A DNA stretch of 64,000 nt, taken from NCBI RefSeq assembly GCF_025602895.1, contig NW_026516212.1, positions 310,001-374,000 of the forward strand, given 5' to 3'. Source of the stretch: Polychytrium aggregatum. Lineage: Eukaryota > Chytridiomycota > Chytridiomycetes > Polychytriales. A model generated the notes under the pieces. That model ran no database searches. It was not told where the DNA came from and saw only the letters and a list, made by a program, of their open reading frames with translations. Made by a program: the position numbers and the translations under genes. Positions 41,297 through 53,193 of this stretch are shown here, piece after piece; the stretch's first letter is position 1, and each line of letters opens with the position of its first letter.

Positions 41297-43988
41297 ATGA
41301 CCATCATCCAGTCGCCTCTGTCCGACAAACCCATCCCAATCTGCTCGATCTCCGACTTTCTGTGCCGGCCAGATCTGCACACCCCTGTCGACCGTCCGGC
41401 CTTGGTCGATGCCGAGACTCGTCACCAGCTCTCGTATCCCCAGTATGTCGATCTGGTTGCGAAGGTGCGATCCCGACTGCTCGCCCGGCCAGGGTTCTGC
41501 AAGTGGGACGTCGTTGCCATCTATTCCCGGAACTCAATATGGTTTCCAGTCGTCTCGATGGGTGTGCTCCAAGCAGGTCGGTGCAGACAGCAACGATTCT
41601 TGCGATCACCGGGGCCGCTGAATGCCTTGGCTGCTGCTGGACGGGATACATAGCTCACCCTTCGCATCTGCTGATCATTTCCGCTCGTAACTGCCCGTCC
41701 GTGCATCCCCTATCTGCCGATCCTGCATATCCTTCCTCAGGCGGAACAGTCACGCCCGTGAGCCCAAACTACACCCATTCCGAGTTGCGAGGTATGGCCA
41801 AGCGAAGCGGCGGATCGCAGCATGCTGTACATCATAGCGCCTCTCTTAACAGACTCCTTCCCGCTCTTGACACTCAGGCCAACTGGCTGACTCGGGAGCA
41901 AAGCTCCTGTTTACGACAAGAGAGCTGCTGCCTGTGGCTCTGGAGGCCATCCAGGGACTCGATGCCATCGCCGTCCAGGATATTGTGTTGATGGACGGCC
42001 TTGGTGCCATCGACACATCAGGTCCTGCTTCCTTGCACGATTGGCTCAACGACTCGGATGGCTCGGTCGCTGCTGTAAAGTCTGGGCCGAGCTTCTCTGA
42101 GGAGGAGCTCAAGACCCGGCCGGCCATCCTTTGCTATTCCTCGGGGACCACGGGACGCAGCAAGGTATGGACGATACGCTGGCTCCTCGTTGCTCTGGCG
42201 AATACGACCCGGCGGTCCAATAATCTCGCATCCATGACCCCAGGGCGTCATGACAAGCCACTTCAACATCGTCGCTGATATCGTCATGAACATGGCCACC
42301 GAAGAGACCGACTCGAGCGAGACGCCCGATCGCATCTGGGTGGCCCCGCTGCCGATGTGTCATATCTTTGGTGAGTCGCGGCCTGCTCGAGCAAAACAGC
42401 GATGCGAGACTCAATGATCGAAGGATCGCATGTGCCGGCTCTATGGCTAACCCGAGCCTGGACAATCCGACCCGAACAGGCATGCACAATATCCACATGA
42501 GCATGGCACTGGTAAGCGCCCCACTTGCTCGATTCATGAGCGGCCTCATGTCGAGGGCTTGGCGATGTCACTAGCTGCAATGGAATCCCTCTATGGATCT
42601 GTGGCCTCCGTGCGATATTCCTATCCGCATTGAGACCATGAAGCGGAGAATTTCCCTGATTTGCGCTGTTCCCGAAGCGCCAATCTGACCGTAATTGCAG
42701 GGCGCTACGCTCGTTGTGCTGCCACGATACGAGCTCCATGCTTTCTGTAGGACCCTCCAGGACTTCAAGGCCACCCGCGCATACGTTGTGCCGCCGATCA
42801 TCCTGGGTTTCCTGCGCAACCCCGGCATTGCTGCCCAATACGACCTGGGCTCCGTCCGGCTGTTTCGCTCGGGCGGATCAAGCATCGGAAGAGAGACAGT
42901 CAAGCAGTTTCGGTCGACCTTTCAGATTGGACTGTCGCAGGGATTTGGAATGACCGAGCTGAGTCCCGCATCCATTATCGTACCCGATGGTTCGTATCTG
43001 CTGCTCCCAGAGCAGAACCGTGTGGCTCTGCGGGCCTGAATGCAATCCCGACTGCATCTTAATCCAAATCGCAACATTCCGCTGACCACAGGCAACAACC
43101 CTGTGTACGATGGGACCATCGGCATTCTGCTGCCCAACCAGCAGGCCCGCATTGTGGACCCAGATTCCGGACGAGGTATTTCCCATGCCATCTCGGCTCA
43201 GCGTGGCAGTGTTGCGTTGGATCAGTGCTCAGACCGTAGCCCAATGTCTGTTTCCAGATCTTGATCGCTGGGAGACTGGGGAGCTCCTCATCCGGGGTCC
43301 AAATGTCATGGTTGGATATCATCGTCGGCCTGAGGAAACGCAAAACACCATCACCACCGACCGCTGGCTCAGAACAGGTTGGTCGGCCGCGATTGTTGCA
43401 TGCTCGCGCTGTGTGCTGTTAGGATGACGAGTCAGCGCAAGGAGCTCATCGCTGACATCCAACAGGGGATCTTGTTCGGCGTGATGATCACGGCAACTTC
43501 TGCATCGTGGACCGCATCAAGGTAGGCGCCGTGGGCCAACCGAGAATTTATGGGGGCTCGGACAGGACAGATCCAGCTGTGCGTGAGAAATGTGGTATGC
43601 TCGATGTATGGCTTACCATTTGAACGATTGTCAGGAGCTCATCAAGTACAAGGGGTTCCAAGTGGCCCCTGCTGAGCTTGAGGCGGTTCTGCTGACCCAT
43701 GCCTATGTTGCCGACGCTGTTGTCGTCGGCATCCCCGACCGGAACGCCGGCGAGCTCCCCAAGGCATTCGTGGTTCTCAAGAACCGCAGCTCTGTTCATG
43801 GCATGCCCCTGAATGCTGCAACCGTCTGCGAGACGATCAGGGCGTTTGTGGACAGTCAGGTTGCCGTCCACAAGCGTTTGCGCGGCGGAGTGGCCATCAT
43901 CAGTCAGGTTCCCAGGGCGCCGAGCGGCAAGATCCTGAGGCGAGTGGTGCGAGGGTGGATCGCCGAGGGGCCACGCAGCAAACTGTGA
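41297..43988 (+). CDS. Peroxisomal acyl-CoA synthetase / 4-coumarate-CoA-ligase-like enzyme
   Basis: Ten exons: 41297-41576, 41741-41791, 41878-42164, 42244-42370, 42480-42511, 42701-42989, 43092-43175, 43258-43377, 43466-43521, 43635-43988. They join to 559 residues. The ANL-superfamily core is complete: P-loop LCYSSGTTGRSKGVMTSH (about 196-213), LSQGFGMTELSP (A5), TGELLIRGPNVMVGY (A7), GDLVRRDDHGNFCIVDRIKE (A8) and APSGKILRRVV with the catalytic Lys (A10). The last three residues are SKL, a textbook PTS1 signal. It activates a carboxylic acid as acyl-AMP and then CoA thioester, probably inside peroxisomes. The precise substrate (fatty acid or aryl acid) cannot be read from sequence. Exon 5 is 32 nt. 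Confidence 0.93.
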
Positions 43989-44283
43989 GAGGCAGCGCTG
44001 TATACTGTCTGGCGTTGATCTGACTTCAATAGAACGGACGAGTTGACCAGAGCCGATGCGGGGGATTGAATGGGAGGCGGCACCGTCCCTTGGAGGCGGG
44101 ATTTGATATCTCCGCCCCACGGAGCTGGAGGATCCACATCCGCCATCGCTGTTGTCATCGCCGTTGCCTCGCATCGGATGTTCGATGGTTGCCCAATCGG
44201 CGCCTTTTTTCCGCTCGGATTGGCGATATATGACCGGGCTCCGCTCTCTCCTCCCCTGCTCGCAAACAGATCTCCCCTCGACA
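43989..44283. promoter_or_regulatory. Intergenic region with TATA-like element for the DUF1295 gene
   Basis: GATATATGA at 44225-44233 lies about 55 bases before the ATG at 44284 and is a fair TATA candidate. Nothing else was recognised. Confidence 0.4.
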
Positions 44284-45443
44284 ATGCCCCAAGTCTTCAA
44301 CACCCTCGATCCTTACGCCTCGTCGCTGGTGGCTGCCTTCGTGGCCGACTTTGCCGTCCAGTTCGTGGCCTATGTGCTGTCGGCTGCGTTGCAGACCGAG
44401 AAGCTCTTTGACCTATCTGGCTGCGTCTCCTTCCTTGCCTCGGTTCTGGTATCCGCCCTGTTGCGTCCGGACGGCGACAGGCTTGCACCTCGACAGATCA
44501 TTGCCGCAGCCCTGCTTGCGGTCTGGTCGCTGCGGCTCGGCCTATTCCTGTTCCAGCGAGTCCTGAGTCGGCCCGACAAGGTGAGCCACCAACCGTATAC
44601 AGCGTCGGAGTCGCTGCGAGACATCAAGCAAGGCGATGCAAGCTGATGTTCCTGGTCTGTTTCAGCGATTCGACGAACTCAAATCCAGTCCCGTCAAGTA
44701 TGCAGGCGTCTTTGTGATGCAGTCGGTCTGGGTCTTTCTGTGCCCGCTTCCTGTGTGGATCGTGCTGGCTCTGTACGGTCCAGAACAGCGTGCCATCCAA
44801 TGGTCCGATATTGTTGGCATCGCTATCTGGGTTGCTGGTTTTGCGATCGAAGCCATTGCCGATGTCCAAAAGTCGGCATTCAAGTCGAAGCACCCAGACG
44901 CCTTCATGAGCAGCGGGCTCTTCCGATATTCGCGCTGTAAGTTGGCGAGGTAGGGAGGAGCTGCCCGGGGCCGCATAAATGGCCTGCACCATTGTCGGAG
45001 CCGTGGATGGCTGGACAGCATTGGCTGCCCACCGATAGCTGACCCGTGGTCTCTGGATGCTCCAGACGCCAACTACTTTGGCGAAGTGACGCTATGGTGC
45101 GGCATGTTCGTGCTCTGCGCATCGGGCTTCACAAGCGGTGTTCAGTGGATCAGCATCATCTCGCCCGTCTTTGTCTACTGCCTGATTGCCTTTGTGTCTG
45201 GCATTCCGATGCTCGAGAAGAGCTCCAGCCAAAAGTATGGGCAGCTGCCAGGTGAGCTTGCTGTCGCATTGCTGCGTCGAGTGCCTGAGTTGTTTGGTGG
45301 CTCTGGCGGCGATGGTGTGCATCCTGGATCGATAACGAATACTCCAACTCCCCCTGGCTGTAGAGTACCAAGACTATGTCGCCAGGACGAGCAAATTTTT
45401 CCTCTGGCTGCCAAAGAAGCAGGCGGCCACACCAGTGCCTTGA
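44284..45443 (+). CDS. DUF1295 / steroid 5-alpha-reductase-like membrane protein
   Basis: Four exons, 44284-44580, 44666-44936, 45066-45251 and 45364-45443, give 277 residues. Several hydrophobic helices are visible (SLVAAFVADFAVQFVAYVL; YAGVFVMQSVWVFLCPLPVW; IVGIAIWVAGFAIEAIAD; ISIISPVFVYCLIAFVSG). The family signature is present: RFDELKSSP, DVQKSAFKSKHPDAF, GLFRYSRYANYFGEVTLWCG (usually SRHPNYFGE, so His-Pro is Tyr-Ala here, across a splice), and a C-terminal YQDYVARTSKFFLWLP. Members are NAD(P)H-dependent reductases or uncharacterised ER proteins; the substrate is unknown. It sits 295 bases after the peroxisomal ligase on the same strand, but fungal neighbours need not be functionally linked. 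Confidence 0.88.
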
Positions 45444-45626
45444 CGCAATCGCAGCCTCGGCTCTCGCAAATTGAAACCAGCAGCCCCACCTTGCATAGCC
45501 AACAGCGACTGCTTTTCATCCGAATACACCCGCTGATCTATCATCCTCGCTGCATGGTGTGGGAATGGCCGACTCGGCGTGGCTGTTGCTTACGCCTCTC
45601 CCTCGGATCCCAACGAGAGGCAGAAA

Positions 45627-48600
45627 ATGCCTTCCCAGGGCTACACCCCAGCGACTCCAACTGCAGAGTGGAAGTGCCAGTTGGAATATGACATCCACGA
45701 TGTGTTCATCAGGCGGGCGAGCCATCGCATATCTCATCGGACCCACTCGCCACCAACTGACTCCTCACACGTTTCGCAGCTATCGAGTCAGCAGTGACGC
45801 CATTAACACCATGGCCCTGCATGGAAGTCTTGCAGTTAATCCACGAGACCAGATGCAACTCCATCCATATCTCGACAGCCTCTGTCTTTGTGACGGCGCT
45901 GACTGGGAGCAGGGTTTCATCAACGGGCTGTATCGATCGAATGTGATTGTCTTGCTGCTGTCGGAGGAGGGACTGAAACGCACCTTCGAGGCCCACCTCA
46001 AGCCAGACAACCAGTTGCTCGAGGTAACTAGTGAGTCGACAGCATCGACGCTGCAGGAGTAAACCAGTCCAATCTCATTCACCATCACTCATCCACTCAC
46101 TCACTCACTCACTCACTCACTCACTCACTCACTCACTCACTCACTCACTCACTCACTCACTCACTCACTCACTCACTCACTCACTCACTCACTCACTCAC
46201 TCACTCACTCACTCACTCACTCACTCACTCACTCACCCATCCACTCATCCACTCACTCACTCACCAAACTCAGACTTGTCCCCAACATCCGAAACCTGAT
46301 CACCAAGACCAAGACTGCTGCAGACCAAGGATCAACATACCACAAGGATAGCCCCATCCAGCTCACAGCCAAACAAGACTTACTCCTGCGACTCCTCCTC
46401 GATCCCATCGACTCGGTCTCGGACAGACGTGCACTCGAGGATCTGTATGTCGAGGTTACCCGCCAGTGGCTATTCGATAAAACCACCGACTGGGTCAACC
46501 AGGACACCACCGACACTGTCCTGTGGGTCAATGCCGTTGCTGGAGTGGGCAAGTCTGTCGCTACTGCCCAGATCGCCAACATCCTCACAGCCAGCAACCA
46601 GCTGGTGGCGGCGTTGTTCCTCAAGTACAACGACACCCGCAAGAACAACCCTCGATCGGTGCTGAACACGATCGCATATGGACTGTGCAAGTGGCACTCG
46701 CCGATCGGCCGCAAGTTGCTCGAAACCAAGGTGAAATTAAAGGTAGAAGCAGCGAAGACTAATGACGGAGATCAAGAATCAATCTCGTCTGAGAATCCAC
46801 CAGAGGAGTACATTGAGCGACCCATCACCAAGGACATTCTCGACAAGATGAACATCCCCGATCTGTTCAGGGCCGTGATCGAGGAGCCACTCAAAGCCAT
46901 CGGCGACTACAGACCCAAGGGATCAGTGATGATCCTGGTGGATGCACTCGACGAGTGTTCTCCGCGCGACCAGTTGCCCAGTCTGCTTGCCGTGCGCTTC
47001 GTCGAGCTGAACCAGACCCGTCCGTGGCTCAAGTTGTTGCTGACATCCCGACCCGAGGAGGACATCAAGGCAGCATTCGATGGAGTACCGACCAAGACAA
47101 TCGAGCCCTCGAGCAAGAACAACATCCGTGACCTCGAGGTGTTCATCCGCCACCGACTGCGAGTGTATGACACTCTCAATGACTCGGATCGCACCGAAGC
47201 AGTCGCCATCCTGCTGGACCAGTCCAAGACATTCGTGTGGATCAACCTGATCCTCAACACCGTCGACATCGAAGCTATGGATGGCCCAGTGACACTCGCC
47301 ACAATCAAGGACATCAACGACAGCGCCGCCGATGTCGGCCAGCTGTACCACAAGACATTCGCCAAGATCCACTCGCAGTCGAGCCACCCGACCGAGCTGG
47401 TCACGGTGGTGTCGGCGATCGCCACATCGCTGACTGGCCCTCACACCCGAAATGATTTCCAAGATCTTCTTCCAGGACCAGGATTACCATTACGCTCTCA
47501 GCATCGTGCATGAGTGCTTGAGATCTCTCAACCTTGTTCTCAATTTCCGTGGCGAGAAGTCGGCAGATGACAGCGAGGTCAAGTTCAACCACAAGTCGGC
47601 GGCGGACTATCTCCTCGGCGACGCATCGGCTGGCCATCCGTGGCATGTGTCGAGTTCGTTCCACACGGTGTTTGCCAAGGGATGTCTCGGTGTGATCCTC
47701 TCGCACAAGCCAGTGATCAACATCTGCGATATCTACGACTTTCGCATAACGACGCTCGATTTGGATGCGCTTCATGCTGTCGGCATTTATCCTGAATATG
47801 AGGAAGAAGATCCTCAGGAAGCACACTATTTGAGCATGATTGGTGAAGGTGACGATTACCTTCATGAGTTCGCCTCAGACTATGAAATTGACCCTGAGGA
47901 GTTTGATGATGATGATGTAGAGAATGAGGTAGGCGTTGATAACCACGAAATGAGTGGAAACTGCACACATAACCCATCCAGAGCTATGCCCAATCACATC
48001 TTGCCGGTTTACAGCTCAGTAGTTCCGCAAGCAGTTGCCGATACCCGAGAGCATTCCTAACAGCAGCTTTGCTCCACAGATTGCGTATTCGGATTACGAT
48101 ACCGAGTTCAGTGATCCGAGTGCAAGCAGCTCTATTGCCGATGATGACGGAGAGGGATCCGACTCCGGCGAAAGTGCGAAATCATTTGGCTTCAGCAAGA
48201 AAGCCTCCAAGAGAATCTCGCAGCTCCTCCGATATTGTGTCGCTCACTGGATCACGCACTTTGTGTGCGATCTTGATGAAGTGGACAAAACGAGCCCGAT
48301 CTGGCGCTCACTGGAATTCAAGGAATTGAGTCCGGTCCTGGCCAAGTTCATGTCAAGCCACGTGTTCTTCTGGATTGAATGCGCATCCCTCATACGTGTC
48401 CTTGATTCCGTTATTGAGCAACTGGCTCAGCTGAAAGCAGCTATCGCCAAGGCACCAAAGGGCATCTTCGATAGTACCACGAGGAAGCTGGTGAAGCATA
48501 CGTATCGATTCATCCGAGAGTTCAAAGATCCGATAATCCAATGTCCGCCCCAGGTGTACAACTCGGGATATGCATTCACCCCGAAAGAAACAACACTCTA

Positions 48601-49425
48601 CAAGACCTATGCCGCTCAGCTCGAGGATAAGATCCCGTTTCGGGTCACTGGCGGCGTACGACCCACCTGGGATTCGCGCGAGATGATATTTGCCGAAGAT
48701 GATCATTTGCTACGCTTTCTCGATGGCAAGTTCACTGCCTCTATCTCGTCCGACAAGAACATTGAAATCCGGGACGCTTCAACGGATGATGTTATGCGCA
48801 TCCTGAAGGGAACAAACGACAATGTGACCGCCATAGACATCTCCGATGACGGCAAATGGATCATCTCCGTCTTGGATGAAAAGACGATCAAGTTGTGGGA
48901 TGCAGCCACGTGTAAAATATCTTACACCCTCGAACGCCACAAGCATCCTGTCACGGGCGTGACTGTGACATCTGATGGCCGATACATCATTACTCGCGAT
49001 AAGAGTAGTCGGGTCATCGTATGGGTCAAGGATGAGGACAAGTTTACTCCATTCTCCAAAAAGTCTCCAACCTTCGATTCGTTCCATGCACAACTCGTTT
49101 CTCATCGATGGGAACACAAGGAAACGTACAAATCCGTTCATGGATATGAGAGCAAATATGCCACAGGTTGGATCCGTCATGGCAAGCATATTGTCAATGT
49201 GCGAAAGAATGAGCCATCGGACTCACTTCCCGAGTTTATTGGGTTCACTCCCTCTGGTGGAACGATTCTCTGTGGAGATTCGTATCGACCGATTGTCATC
49301 GAGGTAAGACGAGCCCATCCAAACCCTGGAGACACCTCCCTTCCGCCATTTCTCTTCCTGACAGTTCTCCTCCTGCCATCTCTCTTTCGCAGTACAATTT
49401 CCCGGATGTGTCGCAGGCTCCATAG
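45627..49425 (+). CDS. TIR-NACHT-WD40 (NLR/STAND-like) protein, with a frame change in the central exon
   Basis: Exons 45627-45712, 45780-46030, 46324-48018, 48080-49303 and 49393-49425; about 1095 residues if one extra base near 47438-47440 is skipped. The N-terminus is a TIR domain (about 20-105): HDVFI|SYRVSSD across a splice, PYLDSLCLCDGADWEQGF and NVIVLLLSEEGLKR. Glu 72 (45907-45909) aligns with the NADase glutamate of SARM1. The NACHT P-loop NAVAGVGKSVATAQI (about 183-195), Walker B MILVDALDEC and the LLLTSRPEED sensor follow, then an acidic linker and a degenerate WD40 region (WIISVLDEKTIKLWDAA; YIITRDKSSRVIVW). The role by architecture is a nucleotide-controlled self/non-self or danger sensor whose TIR consumes NAD+. 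Intron 1 needs a GC donor (AG|GCGGGC). Without a frame correction the product stops at about residue 510. Confidence 0.82.
46084..46262. repeat. (ACTC)n microsatellite in intron of the TIR-NACHT gene
   Basis: About 180 bases of almost uninterrupted CACT/ACTC tetranucleotide, broken only near 46235-46250 (CACCCATCCACTCATCC). It fills most of the intron 46031-46323 between the TIR and NACHT coding parts. Serine/threonine/leucine ORFs over it are artefacts. Confidence 0.97.
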
Positions 49426-50010: not shown

Positions 50011-52556
50011 ATGCTCCTTCGCTCCGTCGCTGCTGGCGCTGCCCTCCTCTCCCTCGTCTCGGCCACGACCCCCGCCTCGGCGGCCTCTGCAAGTGTCCAG
50101 GCCACCCAGCGCCCCCGTCCCACGACCCCACTTTCATACTACCTCTGGCCTCAGCCCTCCAGCGTAAGCATCGCGCAGATGGTTCAGGATTCGCTCGGCG
50201 CCAAGTCGGCCCGGCGGCGTCGTTTCCATCCGCCCAGTCTCACATCTTCGTCTGCATATGCCTTCTCATCCTTCATTCGCACAGATTGTCGATGCCCAAA
50301 AGGTCGTTGATGTCTCCGACTCGTGGCTCGATTTCTCCTCGCCCAACACTCAGCTCGAGACCGTGATCCAGTCGGCCTATGACCGCTTCGCCCATTCGCT
50401 CGAGGTCAAGCGTGCCAACATCGAGTGGAGCGGCTCGACCTTCCGTGTCCAGGTTGTCATCAGCGACCACAGCACCAAGGGCCCTGCTTCGCTCGTCGGC
50501 ATTGATGAGTCCTACAAGGTCCAAGTCACCCAGAGCCTCGCCACTGTCACCGGTATGCATCTGTGCCAGCCCCAGACATGTCGTCATCCCGCGAGCAACA
50601 ACAGGACGGCCGGAGTCATGTGTCCGGTTTCTCTGTGAGCCCCTTGGATCCTGGAGAACCGGTGCCATGTCAATGTACTCGGCCGGCCAGTTTCTCTCGG
50701 TGTACCTGGGGCCAGTCCCGGATCGCTTACATTCACGCTCTTGTTCGTCCCGCACCACACCAGCCAAAACCCAGGCCGGTGCCGTCTACGGACTCCAAAC
50801 CCTCTCGCAGATGATCACCAAGGACGGATACCTGCGCCTCGGCACCATCACCGATGCCCCTCGTTTCTCCTACCGCGGCCTTATGCTCGACACCGCCCGC
50901 AACTTTTTCCCCGTCGAGGACATCAAGCGCATTCTCGATGGTCTGGTTTACTCCAAGGTCAATGTCCTGCACTGGCACATCTATGATTCTCGTAAGTAGG
51001 ACTCTAATCGGGTCGGGTGGGTCTGGGCCGTCCGAGTTGCCCATTCCGCTGCCGCGCTGTCGGTCCCCATGGCCCACCCTGTGCATGGTCATCTGCCAGA
51101 GATGCGATCATCGCGGCACCGCTATCCATTCTACAGAAAGCTCGCCATCCCCGGTTCTGTAATCGGGGCGCACTAACGCTCTCCCCCTCGCCCAGAGTCG
51201 TTCCCGATCAAGTGGGACCGCTATCCCCAGATGCTCGACGCCACTTACAAGTACGACGACGGCACGCCGAAGCTCTACACCCAGCAGGATGTTGCCGACA
51301 TTGTTGACTATGCCTTCCAGCGCAACATTCGCGTCATCCCCGAGTTCGAGGCGGCCGACCACAACGCTGTCTTTGGACACATCAACGCCAGCTACATTGT
51401 CGGATGGAACCACTCTCCCTGGGACGGTCGCAACGGACAGTACATGAACTCCACCGACCAGCCCGACCCTGCCAACCCCACCGCTGCGCTGTGGTGGGGC
51501 GGCCAGTACTGCAACCAGTTCCCTTGCGGCCAGCTCGACATTCGCAATCCCGACGCCATCGCCGTCCTTGACCATCTCATCAGCGACATTGGCTCGTGGT
51601 TCCCCGACCCCGTTCTCCATGTCGGCCACGATGAAGTCAACGCCCGAGTCTACGGCCTCGTGCCCGACAGCTGGGATGTGGCCCCCAGCGACCTGATGTA
51701 TCCGCTGTTTGCAAAGTTCGAGCCGCATCTCCTGCAGACCCTCTCCAAGGCCAAGAAGCAGTATGCCGCCTGGGACGAAGTCATTGACACCTTCAACATC
51801 CAGGGTATCCTCCCCAAGAATGCCCTGATCACTCAGTGGCAGCAGGGCGCCAACAACGACGCCGATCGAGTCAACGCCATCGCCGCCGCCGGCTTCTCCA
51901 ACATTGTCGTCTCTCCCTCGGACTACTGGTACCTCGACTGCTCGCCCTCGCAGAACTGGTGCTCGACCGCCTACGAGCAGACCGTGCCTGCTTTCCAGTA
52001 CAACCTCACCGGGTACCTGACCTACCCCGGCCAGTGGCACAACTGGACCTACATGTACAGCTACGATCCCCTTTGGGGCCTGACCCCCAACGCCAGCCAG
52101 GCTGTCAAGGGTGGATTCGGTGCCATGTGGTCCGAGACCCTCAAGCGCCACAACGTCGATCACTACATTTTCCCTCGAATCTCTGCCATTGCCGAGCGAC
52201 TGTGGTCCTACAACAACACCCAGTGGAACGACCAAACCACCCCGCTTCGACTGGAGCGTTTCCGCGAGTCGCTCATCAACGAACTCAACATTGATGCCGC
52301 TGCGCTCGACTATCTCGGCAACCAGGAGGGCACGACCTTCAAGACCGAGGCCTGCGACGGCGCTGGCCTGCATGCCCCTGGTCAAAAGACCAGCTCCTGC
52401 ACCGACCCTGGCTGCCCCGTCCTCGACAGCAAGGGCAACCCCGTCGTTCCCCCAAGCTACTTTGCCGCCCTTGGCGACTACTGCGACATTGCTGCCACTT
52501 ACAAGACCAACTCGTTCGCCCACACCAACCCCTCGCCCGTCCCTTACTCCTTGTAG
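50011..52556 (+). CDS. Secreted beta-N-acetylhexosaminidase, GH20
   Basis: Four exons, 50011-50163, 50285-50552, 50764-50991 and 51196-52556, give 669 residues. A signal peptide (MLLRSVAAGAALLSLVSATTPASA) is followed by the GH20b domain (YYLWPQPSS|IVDAQKV ... YKVQVTQSLATVT|AKTQAGAVYGLQTLSQ). The TIM barrel begins at APRFSYRGLMLDTARNFFPV, with NVLHWHIYDS|QSFP, RVIPEFEAADHN, and the catalytic Asp-Glu pair in VLHVGHDEVN (usually HxGGDEV). WDEVIDTFNIQG, GGFGAMWSET and ERLWSY line the active site. It releases terminal GlcNAc from chitin oligomers or glycoproteins outside the cell. Codon use is highly biased to C-ending codons, which suggests strong expression. Confidence 0.95.
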
Positions 52557-53193
52557 ACGGTCCAGCGCCACCCGGCCGGCTGGCTTCATGCTTCTGAGCC
52601 TAAACCATCAGCCCGTCGCATAACTGTGCCGGGCCACAAGTCCACTGATCCTGATCCTGATCCTGATCCGCGCTGCGCGGACACCTCGCTGACATTTCCT
52701 TAACCCGCCGATGCTTCTATGAGAAACCCCCCCCCTATGTGTGTGTACTTTTATAACGATATGACATGCGCCTGCCCGCATGTTTCTTAAACTTCCAACA
52801 AAGAAATGAAAAGAAAGAGCTCTCCTCGTCGATTCCTCGCATCTCTGTCCACGATTATCCCTGGCGCCTCGAGATCAACTGCAGGGCTCCCTGAGAGCGC
52901 TGCTTCTGAGACATCCAGACACTTTGGTGAAACCAGGGGGCCCTGCGCTGCCCCATGCCACCCGCCAAGCCGTTGTGCTCCATGCACGCCATCGCCGGGT
53001 GCTTCTCGGGCTTGGCGGGTCGGTTGGGTGGATGTGCTCTTGGCGGCGCGCAGCCTCAAAAAGGGCGTGTTCGCCCCGGCAACAAGCGGGATGCTTGTCC
53101 TCTCATCGCCCGTATTTCTTCATCCGCCTCCTTCTCCAGCCCCCCTTTTCCCTTCCCCCCCCCCATCAATTCCCTCGCTGAAAATCCTCCAAA
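52557..53193. other. Intergenic region with CTGATC repeat
   Basis: Contains four CTGATC units at about 52646-52669 in the GH20 3' region and a T/C-rich stretch before the SPEC3-like ATG. No exon was supported. Confidence 0.5.

Follow-up and report, generated by a model that had tools for sequence, protein, structure and literature searches.

Introduction

Bacterial TIR-STAND defence proteins combine a TIR effector with a STAND switch and a repeat sensor, and the same general plan is seen in the fungal gene family described here, one copy of which lies in a 64,000-nucleotide stretch of DNA (positions 310001-374000 of contig C2; hereafter the window) of a 64.7 Mb assembly of 418 contigs. The copy occupies positions 45627-49425 of the window, and comparison with its relatives indicates that it is probably a pseudogene of a large family of SAM-TIR-NACHT-WD40 receptors.

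Among described fungal systems the family can be set beside the HNWD/NWD genes of Podospora anserina (het-e, het-d and het-r), with which it shares the effector-NACHT-WD40 order, tandem 126-bp WD40 repeats with variable codons 7, 9, 25 and 27 and conserved codons 8 and 26, and a gene family that includes pseudogenes. The four variable codons are reported to be under positive selection in the Podospora NWD genes (PMC1805685; also PMC2873952). The two differ at the N-terminus, which is HET in Podospora but SAM plus a TIR_2-matching TIR here, and in number, with many more loci here; a HET search of our genome gave no matches, but its search controls gave none either. TIR domains are reported in NLRs of Chytridiomycota, and TIR-like NLRs in Pezizomycotina (PMC9815663), and these share with the present family an N-terminal TIR on a fungal NLR; the SAM domain, family size and WD40 diversification found here are not described in the available part of that source. 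In a 2014 survey chytrids yielded no NLRs, and loss or divergence that escaped detection were offered as explanations (PMC4986451). Fungal cell death is reviewed in PMC12881547.

In animals the relevant comparison is with SARM1, an ARM-SAM-SAM-TIR hydrolase of nicotinamide adenine dinucleotide (NAD+), which typically occurs once per genome (PMC7075850) and has homologues carrying the catalytic glutamate in choanoflagellates (PMC6040629). A ligand-binding tryptophan (71) and a catalytic glutamate (75) are described four residues apart, as they are in the SARM1 motif WVHKE (PMC7075850).

Results

The TIR-NACHT-WD40 locus of the window

The initial annotation of the window, made from its sequence, had read the locus as one gene encoding a TIR-NACHT-WD40 receptor of the STAND type. 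The order is borne out by Pfam, whose matches to a TIR-like segment, a NACHT-type NTPase and WD40 repeats follow one another on the + strand, and the receptor class is supported by NPHP3_N (expectation value, E, 2.7e-25) and WD40 (E 2.5e-9), the latter in two stretches versus eight in the closest relative, C42. The NACHT motifs said to be readable are so, as Walker A GVGKS and a Walker-B-like LVDALDEC. NPHP3_N lies above the Pfam cut-off, but the TIR segment alone, with an exon 84% identical to that of C42, reaches only 15.2 bits (E 0.031) against TIR_2, for which the cut-off is 28.

The description as one intact gene was not confirmed. Relative to C42 and locus L013, homology extends across exons 1 and 2, enters intron 2 and, amid TCAC-type repeats there, breaks off to resume only at the end of intron 3; TIR exon 3 (269 bases long in C42) has been lost, and with only the first half of TIR left the copy has no complete TIR domain. 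When exon 2 is joined to exon 4 (the NACHT exon) at the positions that correspond to the relatives' splice sites, a stop is met after 25 codons. The NACHT frame changes near 47434, where C42, L040, L041 and L042 stay in frame, and changes again before 48060, a break that could be an intron. The missing exon, the out-of-frame join and the frame change near 47434 speak against an intact gene, and because of these, together with a GC donor at intron 1, we regard the copy as very probably inactive and a pseudogene. A run of 35 TCAC units in the fused intron remnant is likely to have mediated the loss, in that a deletion between the TCAC-type repeats of introns 2 and 3 would have taken the second half of TIR. 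The TCAC runs in intron 3 are shorter in relatives such as C42.

A large SAM-TIR-NACHT-WD40 family

The paralogue count proposed in the initial annotation gives 125 places in the genome, the window included, with a TIR-exon match at E <= 1e-3; the second TIR exon (exon 3) has 96 matches and NPHP3_N has 106, some of them split. Downstream of the 125 TIR exons and on the same strand, both exon 3 and NPHP3_N are present at 90 places, exon 3 only at three, NPHP3_N only at two (the window and C46:364624), and neither at 30. For nine of the 106 NPHP3_N matches no TIR exon of this kind lies upstream, and some of these nine are near TIR_2 matches. Counts for so large a family are lower bounds, and they include alleles, so that the haploid family size is probably about half the number of places counted. 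The assembly holds allelic duplicates, and its 26 matches to chitin synthase domains and the flagellar gene IFT57, found on two contigs, fit a zoosporic, chytrid-like fungus, in agreement with the early-diverging host that had been proposed.

Introns 1 and 2 have GT and AG ends at homologous places throughout 49 loci (L010-L058), apart from the following cases: no exon 1 was detected in L042 or L043, L025 is one base short at the first donor, L054 is broken, and L024 and L025 have TG instead of AG before exon 3. Exon 3 is present in 49 of the 50 loci examined, the sole absentee being the window copy, although it is in two pieces in L054 and contains a stop in L041.

A SAM exon lies upstream of TIR in 42 of these 50 loci. 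None was detected in the window, L013, L021, L022, L024, L025, L042 or L043 by a search that used pieces of one gene and can therefore miss divergent SAMs. The TIR-NACHT-WD40 layout given initially was thus correct but overlooked the SAM domain of most family members, because the window copy has no SAM exon. Searched against the genome, the SAM query matched 38 places, all 38 of them, by eye, just upstream of TIR exons. Once spliced, the SAMs of C42, L020, L034 and L039 score above a Pfam cut-off, and L036 has two SAM-like modules, the first narrowly passing SAM_2 (21.1 bits versus 20.5) and the second falling under SAM_1 (20.7 versus 23).

Behind the TIR, the C42 protein matches NPHP3_N at 2.5e-27 and WD40 at 2e-83, and 14 of the 20 examined loci of 5 kb or more run from Walker A to WD40 in a single frame. 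The family thereby has both a NACHT-type NTPase with Walker motifs and a repeat sensor, the features by which fungal NLRs are recognised. Sel1 repeats (E 7.2e-28 in C42) are found behind the WD40 exon, on the same strand, in L059 plus L010 (C42) and in L053, and are possibly C-terminal exons of the same genes.

The TIR domain and its conserved glutamate

All 12 spliced family TIRs match TIR_2 (best E 4.9e-6). A profile (A1) built from these 12 and searched against all PDB sequences gave 21 matches at E <= 10, comprising 17 SARM1 chains (best E 5.4e-4), three VCAM and one NAD synthetase. The VCAM and NAD synthetase matches were judged to be spurious, and SARM1 chains are the only TIRs among the matches.

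The profile alignment places the family motif LLE-IQHAL, at the end of exon 2, on WVHKE-IVTAL of SARM1, and DWEQGF on KFEDKL. The glutamate of WVHKE is one that we take to be Glu642 of SARM1. Glu 72, within DWEQGF, had been proposed as the glutamate needed for NAD+ hydrolase (NADase) activity, and an alignment placing it outside the NADase site had been named in advance as counting against the proposal. It does lie outside, on the glutamate of KFEDKL, but another conserved glutamate, at the end of exon 2, fills the site. This SARM1-equivalent residue, whose assignment comes from a single alignment with SARM1, is retained in 49 of the 50 examined loci. L019 (contig C66:32775), where it is glycine, is the sole such copy. 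The Glu 72 position is Glu in all 50; in the more distant TIR of L006, however, its equivalent is Gln and that of the exon 2 end is Glu. With the SARM1 alignment, the Gln in L006 speaks against Glu 72 as the catalytic residue, a role that we no longer assign to it.

The genome contains other TIR genes. L006:1432-1935 (- strand, contig C46) represents a second kind of TIR-STAND gene, in which an intronless TIR is followed by the P-loop GMGGIGKS in one 612-codon frame; a phmmer search with this single TIR gave nothing useful. L001, L002, L003 and L007 are further TIR genes; apart from the TIR-only L001, these match TIR_2 and have NACHT or P-loop regions close by. The L001 protein (402-codon frame) has weak matches to bacterial TIR structures (best E 0.0055), and therefore the SARM1 match is not common to every TIR of the genome. 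None of the PADLOC and NCBIfam models matched the C42 TIR and NACHT at E <= 0.01. A recent bacterial or viral origin was considered and rejected, as pattern scans gave 47 prokaryote and 10 viral contig matches with no relative confirmed, by a narrow method that leaves distant relatives possible.

Selection and sensor diversification

TIR exon 2 is under purifying selection. Among 21 distinct members, with the window copy left out, the median ratio of nonsynonymous to synonymous rates (dN/dS) is 0.173 over 168 pairs with dS > 0.05. Within one subfamily, 12 loci have exon 2 DNA that is identical in all 66 pairs, and identity averages 99.4% in exon 3, 98.4% in NACHT, 96.5% in the part behind NACHT and 69.2% at the start of WD40, a value that repeats out of register may exaggerate. 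These 12 are the 15 loci L044-L058 minus L047, L054 and L055, which are likely alleles or broken, and further allele pairs may remain among them. Across L044-L058, on several contigs, a near-identical promoter-SAM-TIR part stands beside very different WD40 arrays, a pattern that may reflect gene conversion, a recent burst or the swapping of sensors.

The WD40 arrays are made of 126-bp units, with 11.2 copies at 81% matches in L049. In 111 repeats of 42 positions, the most variable positions are 6, 7, 9, 25 and 27, whereas position 26 is Asp in all and position 8 is Val in 92. When the proportion of nonsynonymous differences at each codon (pN) is divided by the overall proportion of synonymous differences (pS), the values at codons 6, 7, 9, 25 and 27 are 1.46, 1.65, 1.42, 1.49 and 1.25, and elsewhere they are at most 0.87; this is a counting measure and not a likelihood test. 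It draws on loci no shorter than 5 kb, which gave 94 repeats, 66 of them distinct, and 526 pairs with an identity of 75% or higher. These repeats were filtered for Asp 26 and the GH motif so that codons 3, 4 and 26 could hardly vary, a filter that the 111-repeat set did not have. The sensor repeats thus diversify at codons 7, 9, 25 and 27, as in NWD genes. This overlap in positions with Podospora suggests that recognition may rely on a common binding surface there and here, with a different effector domain.

Features of the window locus

The features of the window copy are listed in Table 1. Its neighbours, at window positions 42700-45300 and 50200-52600, resemble, by eye from their translations, an AMP-binding enzyme, a membrane reductase-type gene and a GH20-type hexosaminidase.

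Table 1. Features of the TIR-NACHT-WD40 locus, in window coordinates.
Feature	Position	Strand	Basis or remark
Leader before start codon	45603..45626	+	Common to SAM-less L021 and L022
Exon 1, start and first TIR strand (..HDVFI)	45627..45712	+	Manual model; exon present in most examined loci
Intron 1, GC donor (GT in relatives)	45713..45779	+	Manual model, comparison with relatives
Exon 2, first half of TIR domain	45780..46023	+	Manual model, profile alignment
Glu 72 of the initial annotation (DWEQGF)	codon 45907-45909	+	Inside exon 2
Glu aligned with the SARM1 WxxxE Glu	codon 46021-46023	+	Last codon of exon 2, profile alignment
Fused remnants of introns 2 and 3; TIR exon 3 deleted	46024..46273	+	Comparison with C42 and L013
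35 TCAC units	46097-46236	+	Within fused intron 2/3 remnant
NACHT/NPHP3_N exon, first frame	46274..47433	+	Matches 46458-46736 and 46836-47051
End of NACHT region in another frame, then acidic stretch	47434..48059	+	Frame break near 47434
Post-NACHT region and short WD40 sensor, third frame	48060..49303	+	WD40-like match about 48722-49024
GTAAGA..AG intron before putative last exon	49304-49392	+	Read from sequence
Putative last exon with stop	49393..49425	+	Read from sequence; tentative

Discussion

A plausible scenario, which we think is probably right, is that the window copy is a pseudogene and that its intact relatives are intracellular non-self sensors with a SAM-TIR effector. The WD40 propeller would bind a target through fast-evolving residues of its top surface, upon which the NACHT domain would switch and oligomerise, and the N-terminal SAM (apparently two in L036) and TIR domains would be brought together. 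The assembled TIR would probably cleave NAD+ or a related nucleotide, and the cell would be killed or arrested, as by SARM1 and TIR-NLRs. Ligand binding, oligomerisation, NADase activity and cell death are steps that we infer for the intact relatives. The NAD+-consuming switch put forward in the initial annotation is, from sequence, a reasonable proposal for these relatives, and not for the window copy.

Several observations weigh against this scenario. The first spliced member scores 22 bits against TIR_2, where the cut-off is 28, and AlphaFold2 gave an unusable model of L045 read through its introns, with a predicted local distance difference score (pLDDT) of 42.5 and a predicted template modelling score (pTM) of 0.40. 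When each codon's own pS is used, the ratio at codon 27 drops slightly under 1, and codons 21, 35 and 39, where synonymous changes are few, exceed 1. The single TIR of C42 found no PDB sequence with phmmer, and a SAM profile searched against PDB gave 14 matches, to SAMs of EphA, Caskin, Anks and tankyrase, with SARM1 absent. The position of the SARM1 tryptophan, four residues before the glutamate, is Asn in 50 of 50 loci, and therefore catalysis may differ or be absent. Lastly, six of the 20 long loci (L042-L045, L047 and L054) lack a continuous frame between Walker A and WD40, so that a sizeable share of the family may be nonfunctional.

The relationship to SARM1 is accordingly a limited one. 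In both, SAM adjoins TIR, SARM1 is the sole TIR that the family profile finds in PDB, and the family glutamate aligns with the catalytic one. The family nevertheless has NACHT and WD40 domains and no ARM repeats, and so does not have the ARM plus SAM-SAM-TIR arrangement; it replaces Trp by Asn, its SAMs are nearer those of EphA and Caskin, and it numbers tens of loci. Since the single TIR has no PDB match and the SAM profile does not find SARM1, the SAM-TIR module appears to resemble SARM1 in layout and, weakly, in sequence, but not to be a member of the SARM1 family, from which it also differs in architecture.

The same findings bear on three other explanations. One is that the TIR of intact relatives is a scaffold that signals by assembly within NLR-type receptors and does not cleave NAD+; the uniform Asn at the ligand-binding position favours it, and a conserved glutamate is not always paired with enzymatic activity (PMC7075850). 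The retention of the SARM1-equivalent glutamate in 49 of 50 loci and in the distant L006 TIR speaks against a scaffold, and we consider it somewhat unlikely. A repeat-driven burst of genes with little present function is distinctly unlikely. It would account for exon 2 DNA being identical in all 66 pairs of the twelve loci, for the stop in L041 exon 3, the split L054 and the broken window copy, and for the six long loci that are out of frame, but not readily for a median dN/dS of 0.173 between diverged members, amino-acid variability focused on five WD40 positions, or the single unbroken frame of 14 of the 20 long loci.

It is very improbable that the window copy itself is functional, whether through unusual splicing or because the missing exon and frame breaks are errors of assembly. 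GC-AG introns can splice, which would allow for the donor of intron 1. The leader and start codon are common to L021 and L022, to both of which positions 45603-45717 are 93% identical, other close relatives aligning only from 45641, and a search for a second allele of the window flanks, against which the assembly could be checked, found none. The copy nonetheless carries several independent lesions (the loss of exon 3, the exon 2-4 join out of frame and the changes near 47434 and before 48060), and a half TIR would be without the strands coded by exon 3.

The initial annotation had also held that TIR is rarely reported in fungal NLRs. The architecture is real, but TIR-NLRs of Chytridiomycota are already in print (PMC9815663). 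What look new are the scale of the family, the SAM-TIR module and the sensor pattern; no description of a fungal SAM-TIR-NACHT family was found among the titles and abstract openings listed by a literature search, outside which most subscription papers lie. A fuller statement, which we advance only tentatively, is that a flagellated fungus holds, per haploid genome, some tens of NLR loci whose SARM1-like, NAD+-cleaving SAM-TIR module is nearly constant and is connected through NACHT to WD40 sensors diversifying at the surface codons of the Podospora allorecognition genes.

The 90 TIR-NACHT places, alleles included, of a genome with chitin synthase and a flagellar gene stand against the absence of chytrid NLRs from the 2014 survey. 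If the fuller statement is true, a SAM-TIR death module would have been taken up outside animals as the effector of a receptor, and this in a group for which NLRs had once been reported absent. Whether the SAM-TIR of SARM1 and that of fungal receptors have one origin, and whether zoosporic fungi undergo immune-type cell death, can now be tested. The main worth of the locus lies in the family to which it leads, in which a near-constant SAM-TIR effector is combined with a diversifying sensor in what is likely a chytrid.

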